A stretch of 64,000 bases of DNA from Avibacterium avium (GTDB lineage: Bacteria; Pseudomonadota; Gammaproteobacteria; Enterobacterales; Pasteurellaceae): the NCBI RefSeq assembly GCF_900454535.1, contig NZ_UGSP01000001.1:865501-929500 (forward strand), in the 5' to 3' direction. Of the stretch, positions 2,807 to 56,451 are shown piece by piece. A program made the translations under genes and the position numbers. Each line of letters opens with the position of its first letter. Within the stretch, counting starts at the first letter, position 1. The notes under the pieces were generated by a model, which saw only the letters and a list, made by a program, of their open reading frames with translations, searched no databases and had not been told where the DNA came from.

Positions 2807-4153
2807 CTAACGTAGCTGAATTTTTTGTCCTGTTTGTACTTTGCCGTTTTTCAATTTTGGATTGAGTTTTAACAGCGTTGGCACAGGAATGTTATATTGA
2901 CGCGAAATCGCATACAGGGTTTGATCTTTTTTCACTGTATGGTATTTCGGCGTTGTTTTGTCTTTTCCGTTATTTTCGGTTTTGGTATTTTTGTTTGCAG
3001 TTTTATCCGCTTTTTTATTATCGGTTTTTGATTTATCTGCCTTTTTATTATCTGCTTTCTTGTTTTCTGTTTTGCTTGTTGCTTTACTATTTTTCGGCTC
3101 AGCTTTACTTGTTGCAGCTTTGCTATTTTTGCCATTGTCAGGAATTTTGATGGTTTCACCAATCCATAATTCACGGCGTTTGAGTTTGTTTAAGGCGATA
3201 ATATCGCTCATTTTGACATCATATTTAGCCGCTAATCCACCAAGGCTTTCACCATTTTTTACTTTATGGCGAATACCGCTGTCTTTTGGTAGATCTTTGT
3301 TTGAATTGGATTTTTCTTGCGAATTTTGCCCCGCACTTTCACTTTTATTATTTACCGCGGGCGTTTTAGCAACGTTGATTTCACTTTTCACATTACGGCG
3401 GCGGAAATCCACAAGGCTTTCATAAATCACCTGAGCCAGTTTTTTACGATAAGCAGGGGAGTTGAGCTTCTTTTCTTCATCGGGATTGGACAAAAATCCT
3501 GTTTCCACCAAAATAGACGGAATATCGGGCGAACGCAACACGCCAAGGCTAGCGTGCTGTGGTGTGCTGCGGCTTAAGGTGGTGATTTTGGCAAAACGGC
3601 GTAACACAATCGAGCCTAATTCATAGCCCACTCGCTGGCTGTGCCCAAATTGCAAATCCAACACCGTTTGATCCAAATATTTTTCTCTGTGTGAGGCTAA
3701 TACCGATCCTGCACCGCCTAATAATTCCGAGCGTTTTTCGTGATCTTCCAACCATTGCCCCATTTCGCTGTTGGCACGGCGGTTGGATAGCACCCACACG
3801 GACGCACCGCGTAAATCAGGGGAAACGGAAGAATCGGCGTGAATGGAAACCAAATAATTCGCCTTATATTTGCGTGCAATCTCTGAGCGTTCAGGCACGG
3901 AAATATAATAATCGCCTTTGCGAGTCAGCACCGCACGGAAGTTGGGATCTTTATCCAATAAGGCTTTCAGCTCTTTGGCAATGGAAAGAGTAACGTTTTT
4001 TTCATAAATTTTTTGTGTACGGCTGATCGCACCGGGATCTTTTCCGCCGTGCCCAGGGTCAATGGCGATTGTCCAAACATTGGCGAAAGCACTTGAAACG
4101 GCGATAAATCCGCATAAGAAAAAAAGGTAAATAAATCGGTAAAGGTTTCTCAT
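2807..4153 (-). CDS. amiB: N-acetylmuramoyl-L-alanine amidase AmiB, with LysM domains
   Basis: Periplasmic zinc amidase that splits septal peptidoglycan during cell separation. An N-terminal signal peptide (about residues 1-25, ending AFA) is followed by an Amidase_3 domain (about 27-240) with [17 protein letters not shown] and VETGFLSN zinc/active-site motifs. Two LysM peptidoglycan-binding domains follow (about 295-340 and 403-447). They are separated by a low-complexity Lys/Asn/Thr linker of repeated KADNKKADK-type units, which is the one unusual part. The setting between tsaE and mutL is the conserved order known from E. coli. Confidence 0.95.
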
Positions 4154-4202
4154 TCTAAAACTTCACAAAAAATAGCTTAGGTTAAATAGCGTTATTAATT
4201 AG

Positions 4203-4679
4203 TTATGCGATGAGCTGTTGAATAATCTGCTCGCCTTGCTTGCTTTTGGCGTGCAAAGTGAGATTTCGTGCATCATCAACATAATCAATTTGAATGATCA
4301 AATCAGGCTCAGCAAGTAAACCACGCCCTTTTTCAGACCATTCAATCAGGCAAATACTTTGTGCATTAAAATAATCACGAATGCCCATAAATTCTAATTC
4401 TTCGGGATCACTTAAACGATATAAATCAAAATGATAAATGGATTTTCCCGCTAAATGATATTCTTCCACCAAGGTGTAAGTGGGGCTTTTTACCTTGCCT
4501 TCATAGCCTAACCCTTGGATCATTCCACGGCTTAGGGTGGTTTTCCCTGCGCCAAGATCACCGTTTAAATAAATCACAATGCCTTTTTCTGTCGCCATTT
4601 GGCTAACAATTTGCATTAATTTCGCTCCAAAGCGACACATTGTGATTTCATCAGGAATATATTGACTAAACTGTTCCAT
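4203..4679 (-). CDS. tsaE: tRNA threonylcarbamoyladenosine biosynthesis protein TsaE
   Basis: Small P-loop ATPase that works with TsaB and TsaD to make t6A37 in tRNAs reading ANN codons. Walker A GDLGAGKT is at residues 40-47. Further family motifs are VKSPTYTLVEEY, IYHFDLYRL and IEWSEKG. 158 aa is the usual length. It is the first gene of the leftward tsaE-amiB-mutL-miaA group, 49 bp before amiB. Confidence 0.95.
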   Translation of the reverse strand: MEQFSQYIPDEITMCRFGAKLMQIVSQMATEKGIVIYLNGDLGAGKTTLSRGMIQGLGYEGKVKSPTYTLVEEYHLAGKSIYHFDLYRLSDPEELEFMGIRDYFNAQSICLIEWSEKGRGLLAEPDLIIQIDYVDDARNLTLHAKSKQGEQIIQQLIA

Positions 4680-48241: not shown

Positions 48242-48284
48242 AAGAGCGGTGGAAAATATTGAAATTTTTCACCGCTCTTTTTTT
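48242..48284 (+). terminator. Intrinsic terminator of the lepA-era operon
   Basis: AAGAGCGGTG (48242-48251) and CACCGCTCTT (48270-48279) form the stem, followed by seven T. It marks the last clearly host sequence left of the prophage. Confidence 0.8.
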
Positions 48285-49319: not shown

Positions 49320-49339
49320 AAACCGCCCTAAGGCGGTTT
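49320..49339 (-). terminator. Intrinsic terminator inside the early operon, before gemA
   Basis: AAACCGCC (49320-49327) and GGCGGTTT (49332-49339) form a perfect 8-bp stem with a 4-nt loop. Read leftward, TTTTTTTGTATT follows. It separates the A-B-gam block from gemA-mor. Confidence 0.8.
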
Positions 49340-52087: not shown

Positions 52088-53908
52088 TTAGGCCGCCAAC
52101 AACCGCAAATTTGAGCGTGTTGGCGAAGGTTGAACAAACTCCGCCTTGAACTCATCAAAGCCCAAGCCCAACAATCGTTCGGCTTCCACCTGCGGCACAC
52201 CTTGCGGATATTTGCCGTTCACCCATTGATAGCATTCACCATTCCACAACTCGCCCCAGCGAGCTTTGCCGTTTTTGGCAAATTCCACCACCGACATCGG
52301 CTTTTGCTCCACCCGTCGGGCGTTGGTAGTGAGTTCGTGTTCTTGTCCGTTTTTCGGTAAGAACCACATAAGCTGATTCTCATCAAGATGTTTGTAAGGG
52401 TCGATTTCGCCATTAAATAACGGCACATTGGCTTTCTTCGCACGTTTCAACTCATGTTCGGTGGCCACACCATAAGCCAGTTGCTCCGCCTGCTCCTTAT
52501 TGGTTTCAAAGGCGGTTTTACTGTGCGCTTTGTATTCTTCGCCAATTATCGCCGCATCCACACGGAAACCGTATTCATTCACTTCAATCGGCTCAAGTAC
52601 CACCCAGTAAGGCTTCAGCATCGCCTTACCCGTTTCATCAAGCAAATGTTCAAAACATTGCACTTGCACACATTCAGGGCGGTAAGGGTTTTTGCCCACC
52701 GTGATTTTCTCACCCACTCGAACATCAGGCACATCACGCACATCATAACGGCGGTTCTCAAAGCTGATTTCCAACTTATCGGTAACCAATCGCTCGCTTA
52801 ATGCGGTGATCATCAATTCCTGACAAATCTCACGGCTAGGGGGCAAGATTAAATCTTTCGTGTGAATTTTCTGCCACGCCCCATAGCGTGTCATACCGTG
52901 TCGGCTGTGAATGGCTTTACCGTTGAAATAGCGCATCCATTGGTGGGCAAGCTGGTTCAGTTCCGCCAAACCACTCACATTCATAAACCGCAGCCCGCTT
53001 TCAAATTGCCGTTCCACAATATCGTTGCCTTTCTCCACTTGCCCTTTGGCTCGGGCGTTGTGGGCTTTCGGCACTTCAATTTTTACATCCAACTGGTTCA
53101 GTAAGTGCGTGAACATTTGCGAGGTATTGGCAGAACCGCGGTCGAACATCAAAATTTTCGGCACACCGAAAAACGGCTCGGCAGGGCTTTCTTTCTTCTG
53201 AATGGCGTTGATAAAGGTTTCCGAAATGTTCTCTGCCGTTTCGCCGCCATACACATATTCCACATAAATCACCCCGCTGGCGTGGTCGGTGATCACATAT
53301 CGCCACACCCGTTGCGGTTCCACCTTCGCCACATTCGCAGGCTTGTTTTTGTAGAACTGTTCCGCTTCCATTACGCATAGCCCATTGCCTTTGCCTGTTT
53401 CTTTCAAGTAATACAGCACACACAAAGACGGGTCGATTTGCCACACGTGGTTCGGGTGTCGGCTTTGCAACTGCACCACAGGAGCGGGGCGTAACAGTTG
53501 GTCGGGGTGCAAATTGGCGTTGCGTAACGCCCGCTCCACCGAACTTGCCGAATAAGGGCGAACTTCGCCTGTTTTCTCGTCCACAAACTCCGCTTTCACT
53601 TTGTTGTTGGCGCGTAATATGTCCAAAATCCGCTCCAGCGTTGCCATGGTTTTGCCGTTTTTGCGCCGTAGGTGTAACCACGCCGCACTAATCAATTTCA
53701 GCTCGTTTGCTTCCATTTGATGTTTCCCCTTATCGCACCGCACTTTGCGACCACTTGCCGGTCGAAACGGTTTAAGCTGCCGAAGAAAAGTCGCACGGCT
53801 TAAGCCTGTTTTTGTGCAACCTTCTTCAATAATTTTTTCCTTCTCGCCAAAGCCTGCCTTCTCCACACGCTCGGCATATTGGGCGAGAACGCTCGGTAGT
53901 ATTGCCAT
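52088..53908 (-). CDS. Phage DDE transposase A (MuA/BcepMu TnpA-like)
   Basis: 606 aa. N-terminal HTH DNA-binding segments (about 1-130) are followed by an integrase core with Asp159 (WQIDPS), Asp256 (MFDRGSAN) and Glu292 (GQVEKGND), a DD35E spacing. A C-terminal beta-barrel and B-interaction region follow. It performs replicative transposition of the phage and integration. It starts 9 bp after the coiled-coil gene. The chain is intact. Confidence 0.92.
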   Translation of the reverse strand: MAILPSVLAQYAERVEKAGFGEKEKIIEEGCTKTGLSRATFLRQLKPFRPASGRKVRCDKGKHQMEANELKLISAAWLHLRRKNGKTMATLERILDILRANNKVKAEFVDEKTGEVRPYSASSVERALRNANLHPDQLLRPAPVVQLQSRHPNHVWQIDPSLCVLYYLKETGKGNGLCVMEAEQFYKNKPANVAKVEPQRVWRYVITDHASGVIYVEYVYGGETAENISETFINAIQKKESPAEPFFGVPKILMFDRGSANTSQMFTHLLNQLDVKIEVPKAHNARAKGQVEKGNDIVERQFESGLRFMNVSGLAELNQLAHQWMRYFNGKAIHSRHGMTRYGAWQKIHTKDLILPPSREICQELMITALSERLVTDKLEISFENRRYDVRDVPDVRVGEKITVGKNPYRPECVQVQCFEHLLDETGKAMLKPYWVVLEPIEVNEYGFRVDAAIIGEEYKAHSKTAFETNKEQAEQLAYGVATEHELKRAKKANVPLFNGEIDPYKHLDENQLMWFLPKNGQEHELTTNARRVEQKPMSVVEFAKNGKARWGELWNGECYQWVNGKYPQGVPQVEAERLLGLGFDEFKAEFVQPSPTRSNLRLLAA

Positions 53909-55410: not shown

Positions 55411-55698
55411 ATGACGGTAATTAAATTGCCGATAAAAAGGCTCACCGAACTCGAACAACGAGTGAATGAACTAGAAATTCACGTTCAAAATCTCGATACA
55501 GAAAATCGGCTTTATCAATCTATTCTGGCTTCGCTGATTTCCATCTTGCCCAATAATGAACGCCAAGCGTGGATTAAAGATTTTGAGACGCTTTACGAAC
55601 TCGGCTTGGACGATGTGGAAAACGCATTGCCAACTCCCCAAAAACGGAATAACAGATCCGTTTATCTTGACCAACTACTATCTCTTTTGGATAAGTAG
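55411..55698 (+). CDS. Small coiled-coil protein on the opposite strand
   Basis: 95 aa beginning MTVIKLPIKRLTELEQRVNE. A heptad-like coiled coil covers about residues 10-40 (LEIHVQNLDTENRLYQ), followed by a helical region. AAGGAAA lies 5-6 nt before the ATG. It runs against the leftward early genes, so its expression would be antisense to them. It may be a lysogeny-associated gene or a regulator. No family recognised. Confidence 0.6.
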   Translation: MTVIKLPIKRLTELEQRVNELEIHVQNLDTENRLYQSILASLISILPNNERQAWIKDFETLYELGLDDVENALPTPQKRNNRSVYLDQLLSLLDK

Positions 55699-55756
55699 CT
55701 TTCTTTTCTTCAACAGACAGGCTGTTAGGCTTGTCTGATTTCTTTTCTTTCTGCAT
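55574..55756 (-). CDS. Possible small early gene overlapping the opposite-strand gene
   Basis: 60 aa, Lys-rich N-terminus (MQKEKKSDKPNSLSVEEKKA). A strong AGGAG lies 6 nt before the ATG, directly after the hairpin cluster, which is unlikely for a random frame. However, 125 bp overlap the 95-aa gene on the other strand, and only one of the two may be translated at a time. No domain recognised. Confidence 0.4.
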   Translation of the reverse strand: MQKEKKSDKPNSLSVEEKKATYPKEIVVGQDKRICYSVFGELAMRFPHRPSRVRKASQNL

Positions 55757-55794
55757 AAAATCTCCTATTGTTTATTTAATAAAGAGCGGTCGAC

Positions 55795-55868
55795 AAAAAG
55801 TATACTTTTTGAATGTCGGCTTTGCCGACAGCCCCAACGGGGCGAACAATCGAACTTGCTTCGATTGT
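55795..55868. repeat. Four consecutive perfect stem-loops
   Basis: In order from 55868 leftward: ACAATCGAA / TTCGATTGT (55846-55868, 5-nt loop), GCCCC / GGGGC (55831-55843), TGTCGGC / GCCGACA (55814-55830), and the perfect 16-bp palindrome AAAAAGTATACTTTTT (55795-55810). They lie in the untranslated leader between two leftward early genes, just downstream of a boxA. Confidence 0.85.
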
Positions 55869-55896
55869 GAGTATCTTTTCGCTGTTTTTTCTAAAT

Positions 55897-55908
55897 TGTT
55901 AAAGAGCA
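55897..55908 (-). promoter_or_regulatory. rRNA-type boxA antitermination signal in the early operon
   Basis: Read leftward the sequence is TGCTCTTTAACA, identical to the boxA of enterobacterial rRNA leaders, followed by ATTTAG. It lies 12 bp after the stop of the 107-aa early gene, and the first stem-loop begins about 28 nt further on. BoxA RNA binds NusB/NusE. A second boxA-like GCTCTTTA occurs at 55780-55787, after the hairpins. Confidence 0.7.
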
Positions 55909-55920
55909 GGTTGCGTGTAT

Positions 55921-56244
55921 TTAAGCCGCCGCTTGGTGGTCGGGGTCAGGCTTTAAGCCCAACAACACCGCCGTTTTATGAGCTTCGCCCCAAGTGCCTT
56001 TCAGCTGTCCGCGAAGTAAGTCGGAAATCGCTTGCTGATCCACACCAAAGTGCCTTGCCCATTCGCTACGATTAATCCCATGTCGTAAAAAATAGGCTCT
56101 TGCACTTTCTCGTGTTTGCGGATAGGGTAAGGGGTGAAATACCTTTCGTGAACCATTACGAGGAGGGATGTCTTTTTTAGGAATAAAAACAGTTAAACCA
56201 CCAAAATTGTGTTCTTTAGTGCATCTATAATTGATAAAAATCAT
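55921..56244 (-). CDS. Phage DNA-binding protein, second gp16-like copy
   Basis: 107 aa. The C-terminal 60 residues (ARAYFLRHGINRSEWARHFG, VDQQAISDLLRGQLKG, AHKTAVLLGLK) parallel the upstream 63-aa gp16-family protein: an HTH followed by a G-x-AHKxAV-x-LGLK tail. The N-terminal 45 residues are extra. AAGGAGG precedes the start. It is likely a transcription or transposition accessory factor. The boxA lies just after its stop. Confidence 0.7.
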   Translation of the reverse strand: MIFINYRCTKEHNFGGLTVFIPKKDIPPRNGSRKVFHPLPYPQTRESARAYFLRHGINRSEWARHFGVDQQAISDLLRGQLKGTWGEAHKTAVLLGLKPDPDHQAAA

Positions 56245-56259
56245 ACTATCCTCCTTAAG

Positions 56260-56451
56260 TTAAGCCGCCGCTTTTAAGCCGAGCTTCACGGCAATTTCGT
56301 GTCCGATACCACGTTTGGCTTTAATCGTGCCATTCAATACGCGGTAAACATACAATCGGTCATAACCATGTTCTCTTGCCCAATCAGCGAAAGATTCGCC
56401 ACGGGCTTCAAACTCGCTTTTCACCTGTTCAGGCGTTTTAACATTCAGCAT
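56260..56451 (-). CDS. BcepMu gp16-family phage DNA-binding protein
   Basis: 63 aa, beginning MLNVKTPEQVKSEFEARGES with ADWAREHGYDRLYVYRVLNG (HTH) and ending IAVKLGLKAAA. This is the compact one-domain family found at the head of BcepMu-like early operons; the name is from memory of that family. AGGAG precedes the ATG. It is the first gene leftward of the control region. Confidence 0.75.
   Translation of the reverse strand: MLNVKTPEQVKSEFEARGESFADWAREHGYDRLYVYRVLNGTIKAKRGIGHEIAVKLGLKAAA

Follow-up and report, generated by a model that had tools for sequence, protein, structure and literature searches.

The window, by which we mean the whole 64-kb stretch of DNA analysed, contains the early operon of a phage that is transcribed leftward, on the minus strand. 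This operon is opened by a Ner-type gene of 63 aa (56260..56451), whose relatives are annotated as Ner-like in B3-like phages, and this is followed by a Ner-like HTH gene of 107 aa (55921..56244). Immediately downstream of the latter, 12 nt past its stop codon, lies a boxA, TGCTCTTTAACA (55897..55908), and the first gene past boxA is a 60-aa ORF (55574..55756), which is nearly identical in the related locus L171. The gap between boxA and this ORF holds four hairpins, which form an inserted 82-bp copy of a dispersed repeat, RF02902 (AaHKsRNA22), at 55794..55875 in plus-strand orientation. Farther along the operon, all on the minus strand, we find a gene for a MuA-type transposase of 606 aa with an rve domain (52088..53908), an intrinsic terminator (49320..49339) that immediately precedes the ribosome-binding site in the gemA region, and gemA itself (PF06252; 48888..49286) downstream of this terminator.

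The earlier note had placed an exact boxA on the leftward early transcript, and we have confirmed it on the minus strand at 55908-55897. The exact 12-mer occurs only once in the window, and three sites with up to one mismatch are found there against 0.62 expected. The phage sequence is the same as the host's own rrn boxA: the exact 14-mer TGCTCTTTAACAAT has eight copies genome-wide, of which seven are rRNA-type sites located beside tRNA genes or within 16S/23S leaders, and the eighth is the phage boxA. The phage boxA also fits the consensus GYTCTTTAANA (PMC5725501), and a nusB gene is present in the host genome.

We have surveyed 15 viral loci picked by transposase similarity, among which L170 is the window's own phage. 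At the matching position boxA is exact in 11 loci, has one mismatch in three and is absent from one, and in these B3-like transposable phages of Pasteurellaceae it lies about 9-60 nt past a ner-type gene. In the same 15 loci, searched on both strands (348,624 nt), the 14 matches at the post-ner site are accompanied elsewhere by seven one-mismatch matches and no exact match. In other prophages, too, a boxA is located behind distantly related Ner-type genes, with a Ner identity of only about 33%. Among the phages examined, boxA is absent from Mu, from Mannheimia phage 3927AP2 and from the B3-like phages of Pseudomonas, Burkholderia and E. coli, and it is absent also from one Pasteurellaceae clade (L176, L382 and L384/L385). 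The flanks of boxA diverge among relatives while boxA stays; the flank alignment was anchored on boxA itself, and the independent evidence is the recurrence of boxA at one position. For example, L170 and L173 agree at 91% upstream of boxA and are unrelated downstream, and L170 and L171 have the reverse pattern, with 95% agreement downstream. Judging from these comparisons, boxA marks a mosaic boundary, and the genes on each side of it are exchanged independently. Such a boundary might suggest that boxA has been retained chiefly to serve as a short joint in recombination, at which ner and the downstream modules are exchanged, and that it plays no part in transcription; we consider this very unlikely in view of the match to the host rrn boxA, the position equivalent to that of lambda nutR and the co-occurrence of an internal terminator.

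The distance from boxA to the predicted next start codon is 68-94 nt in most relatives and about 150 nt in L177, L180 and the window. In predicted folds of L173 (4479-4560) and L178 (1813-1905), the CUCUU of boxA pairs with the downstream Shine-Dalgarno region, which is a possible switch. L177 and L180 have another hairpin-rich block between boxA and the next gene (4018-4230 and 4041-4250, respectively; approximate coordinates), and no Rfam family matched this block at the gathering threshold. The spacing of 68-94 nt in most relatives would suit a boxA of the suhB type, at which NusB/NusE, bound close to where the next gene begins, represses its translation and favours termination by Rho, i.e., a negative control of the early operon. 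Precedents are suhB itself and the boxA-regulated ParE toxin gene in Citrobacter (PMC5725501), and the Shine-Dalgarno pairing modelled in L173 and L178 is consistent with it. We nevertheless regard such a negative control as unlikely: the distance from boxA to the start codon exceeds the limit of <50 nt that was set in the search of PMC5725501, the spacing varies as aforementioned, and the next gene differs between phages, so that a specific target is improbable.

The internal terminator lies about 6 kb downstream of boxA and is conserved in relatives, with the motif ACC[G/A]CCTTCGGG[C/T]GGTTTT and a compensatory stem change between phages. A ribosome-binding site and a start codon follow within about 25 nt, and because the start codon is so near there is no room for a promoter between the terminator and the next gene; a promoter inside the gene that precedes the terminator is possible. 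The layout of a terminator followed by a start codon was found in 14 of the 16 loci with an exact boxA, a count that includes L184, and in none of the six loci without an exact boxA. This association is strong by count; however, it is only suggestive, because boxA and the terminator show few independent changes on the MuB tree and because L379/L380 are discordant, having kept boxA while the terminator is missing. Since boxA is conserved in place and the terminator with its start codon lies downstream, Nus-type antitermination of the early operon is plausible.

Turning to the hairpins, we have found all four to be perfect on the minus strand and the first to be a 23-nt hairpin with a 5-nt loop, just as had been described. 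In the minus-strand reading, the order on the leftward transcript is H4, ACAATCGAA-GCAAG-TTCGATTGT (55846..55868; 23 nt with a 9-bp stem); H3, GCCCC-GTT-GGGGC (55831..55843; 5 bp and a 3-nt loop); H2, TGTCGGC-AAA-GCCGACA (55814..55830; 7 bp and a 3-nt loop), which is the best conserved part of the repeat; and H1, CAAAAAGTATACTTTTTG (55794..55811), a fully self-complementary 9+9 palindrome. The full Rfam match to RF02902 extends over 55784-55885, where the covariance model gives 77.3 bits against a gathering threshold of 39.8. The predicted fold of the leader RNA has an energy of -44 kcal/mol; shuffled sequences average -27.6 (z -4.65), and none of 200 shuffles was as stable. The repeat starts about 20 nt past boxA, which is left intact.

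The earlier note had joined boxA and the hairpins into one nut- or put-like module, in which the first hairpin would be an analogue of boxB or the hairpins an autonomous antiterminator. Their adjacency, the 5-nt loop and the very stable fold speak for such a module, but its unity is contradicted by relatives that keep boxA and have no hairpins. When the leader is aligned across relatives, boxA is conserved in position, and none of the relatives examined has the hairpins. L171, which is 92% identical, shares boxA and the next gene with the window and is missing the hairpins, and L172-L175 are also empty. The empty site of L171 reads cagcgaaaa followed directly by atcgaccgctcttta, and the filled site of the window reads cagcgaaaa, the insert and then tcgaccgctcttta. 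The leader of the empty site shows no significant structure (z 0.33). The same hairpins, moreover, are found in places that have no boxA, both in genomes across the Pasteurellaceae and in the phage HP2. On account of the empty sites we reject the boxB or put reading, and we judge a single module to be highly improbable. The second GCTCTTTA (55787-55780), which had been taken for another boxA, must also be read differently, as it is the complement of the uptake-signal-like AAGAGCGGTC (55782..55791, plus strand) that adjoins the insertion, and it is present in the hairpin-less relatives. AAGAGCGGTC is one base off the host uptake signal AAGTGCGGT, the short tag by which these bacteria recognise DNA to be taken up, which has 34 copies in the window; because AAGAGCGGTC is present in the empty site, i.e., before the insertion, it is owned by the phage.

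The RF02902-type repeat was found in 99 of 140 Pasteurellaceae genomes (in 71 above the curated cut-off), with up to at least 26 matches per genome, and in none of 14 controls. The best 30 copies adjoin ordinary chromosomal genes in both orientations, and the hairpins therefore belong to a dispersed repeat rather than to a phage module. No copy was found in the plasmid collection, and a distant blastn search of the window leader against the phage collection gave no match. In the host genome, the sole other copy above the threshold (L224, 1501-1596) is degenerate, and no uptake signal immediately precedes its H1.

We have analysed the anatomy of the repeat in 109 unique copies. Their stems are 97.4% Watson-Crick despite wide sequence variation, there being 52 stem variants for H1, 52 for H3 and 71 for H4. 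Stem mismatches of the GT type (25) and the AC type (16) are similar in number except at one basal H3 pair, which is G.T in 50 copies in the orientation of the model; the comparison of GT with AC over the 109 copies gave no clear bias of the kind that selection on an RNA strand would leave. The orientation to co-directional genes is even (27 same, 29 opposite), and 13 of the 109 copies lie inside ORFs. An uptake-signal-like motif stands to the left of H1 in 89 of the 109 copies, most often 2 nt from H1, against 7% of random windows, and an inverted one stands to the right of H4 in 23 copies. It may be supposed, as the Rfam name suggests, that the repeat functions as a small RNA or as an mRNA element, selected for its RNA structure; the compensatory stem variation, the Rfam class of sRNA and the basal G.T pair of H3 are in accord with this. 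The even orientation to genes, the nearness of GT to AC overall, the copies inside ORFs, the dozens of dispersed copies and the empty sites make it distinctly unlikely. Because the stems vary and yet remain paired, and because of the lack of orientation bias, the copies inside ORFs and the association with uptake signals, it is more probable that the repeat is a DNA-level palindrome that inserts by uptake signals.

Filled and empty pairs point to the site of insertion. In Haemophilus phage HP2, a copy of 92 bits lies just after cox (L386 905-999, corresponding to about 3589-3683 of NC_003315). The empty site of HP1 reads AAAAGTGCGGT followed by TAGTTTCC, and the filled site of HP2 reads AAAAGTGCGGT followed by an element running from CACAAAAAAC to GTGAG and then by TAATTTCC, so that the insertion stands directly after the uptake-signal core AAGTGCGGT. 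HP1 and HP2 are thus a natural empty and filled pair in well-known phages. Likewise, among the repeat units of rnfC, those that have the element differ from those that lack it by an insertion after AAGTGCGGT. In both the HP2/HP1 pair and the rnfC units, the insertion is directly 3' of the uptake-signal core, and in the pair of the window and L171 it adjoins the uptake-signal-like AAGAGCGGTC. The rnfC gene holds several in-frame copies, mostly 225 bp apart (L039 1830-2754 and L040 1826-2831), and in HypF (ORF 480-2852 of L038) a copy of the repeat encodes 27 in-frame residues that are extra in comparison with PDB 3tsq. We also note that a host terminator in the window (48242-48279) is built from two inverted copies of AAGAGCGGT, which differs from the uptake signal by one base.

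As to how the repeat has spread, no linked transposase was found. Y1 proteins occur in 108 of the 140 genomes; their presence does not track the copy number of the repeat, and one genome (G020) has 16 matches and no Y1 protein, a comparison that says little for or against Y1 transposase as the mobiliser of the repeat. The tight association with uptake signals and the failure to find a linked transposase would be understood if the repeat were not mobile and had been spread only by transformation and recombination between DNAs bearing uptake signals. We find this somewhat unlikely, however, since the copies are found at genomic locations unrelated to one another, and since in the filled and empty pairs the only difference is the element, beside an uptake signal; this leaves little homology for recombination. 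We infer instead that the repeat is probably actively mobile and would be moved by an enzyme.

Taking these results together, we consider it probable that two separate features lie side by side: boxA is a conserved phage element serving antitermination, and the hairpins are an inserted dispersed DNA repeat. The proposal of a nut- or rrn-like module has therefore survived in part, as boxA is that of the host rrn operons, is conserved in position and has a conserved terminator downstream, while the hairpins do not belong to it. In the mechanism that we consider most likely, the host NusB-NusE(S10) complex would bind boxA in the nascent early RNA and, with other Nus factors, would render RNA polymerase less prone to terminate along the 7-kb early operon; a candidate target in range is the conserved internal terminator, after which the next gene begins too soon to leave space for a promoter. 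On this reading, the repeat was inserted beside the uptake-signal-like sequence that lies between ner and the following gene, and it acts at the DNA level, as a mobile or otherwise copied palindrome, apart from the boxA machinery. A bolder proposal, which we put forward tentatively and hold at a little below even confidence, is that the Pasteurellaceae harbour miniature four-hairpin mobile elements, which insert specifically directly 3' of uptake signals, including those in phages and, in frame, in proteins, and thereby hitch-hike on natural transformation, and that, separately, the B3-like phages of these hosts use an rrn-type boxA for early antitermination. If boxA works in this way, transposable phages make use of the ribosomal machinery of antitermination at the point where lambda has nutR. 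The repeat, on its part, suggests that what Rfam lists as an sRNA family is a DNA element, dispersed and inserted at uptake signals, which would connect mobile palindromes with natural competence. In the literature searched, which was mainly open-access, we found no report of boxA in Mu or B3-like phages, and an earlier description is possible.

Among known systems, the closest to the phage boxA is the rrn boxA with NusB-NusE (together with SuhB, NusA and NusG), as the 12-nt boxA is identical to that in the host rrn operons; unlike in the rrn system, it lies in an mRNA between two coding genes and not in an rRNA leader. Antitermination by boxA alone, as in rrn operons, is best known against Rho and not against intrinsic terminators. 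In lambda, nutR follows cro. In lambda-type nut sites and in mEpimmI phages (PMC11893012), boxA likewise stands directly after the first early gene, of cro/ner type, and before internal terminators; the phage here differs in having no conserved boxB hairpin 3' of boxA, and no N-type antiterminator was noticed. The put RNA of HK022 is, like the window hairpins, a structured RNA in an early phage leader, but the window hairpins are not conserved among related phages. The dispersed palindromes of the REP/REPIN type and the Rickettsia palindromic elements are comparable, and in-frame copies in proteins are shared with the Rickettsia type; the repeat here is distinct from REP/REPIN in consisting of four tandem hairpins tied to uptake signals, and a linked RAYT/Y1 transposase was not found. 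The only earlier description of the repeat that we have found is a short account of Pam-1 of P. multocida, which may be the same repeat: a structured stem-loop family of 155 bp and 12 copies, with uptake-sequence repeats, explained by spaced uptake sequences with a possible terminator function and not by insertion (PMC2267715). Compared by description only, the two agree in uptake-sequence content and stem-loop structure. Finally, RF02902 (AaHKsRNA22) shares its four-hairpin layout with the window copy, which scores above gathering; what is an Aggregatibacter sRNA in Rfam is here a dispersed, non-oriented and uptake-signal-associated repeat across Pasteurellaceae.
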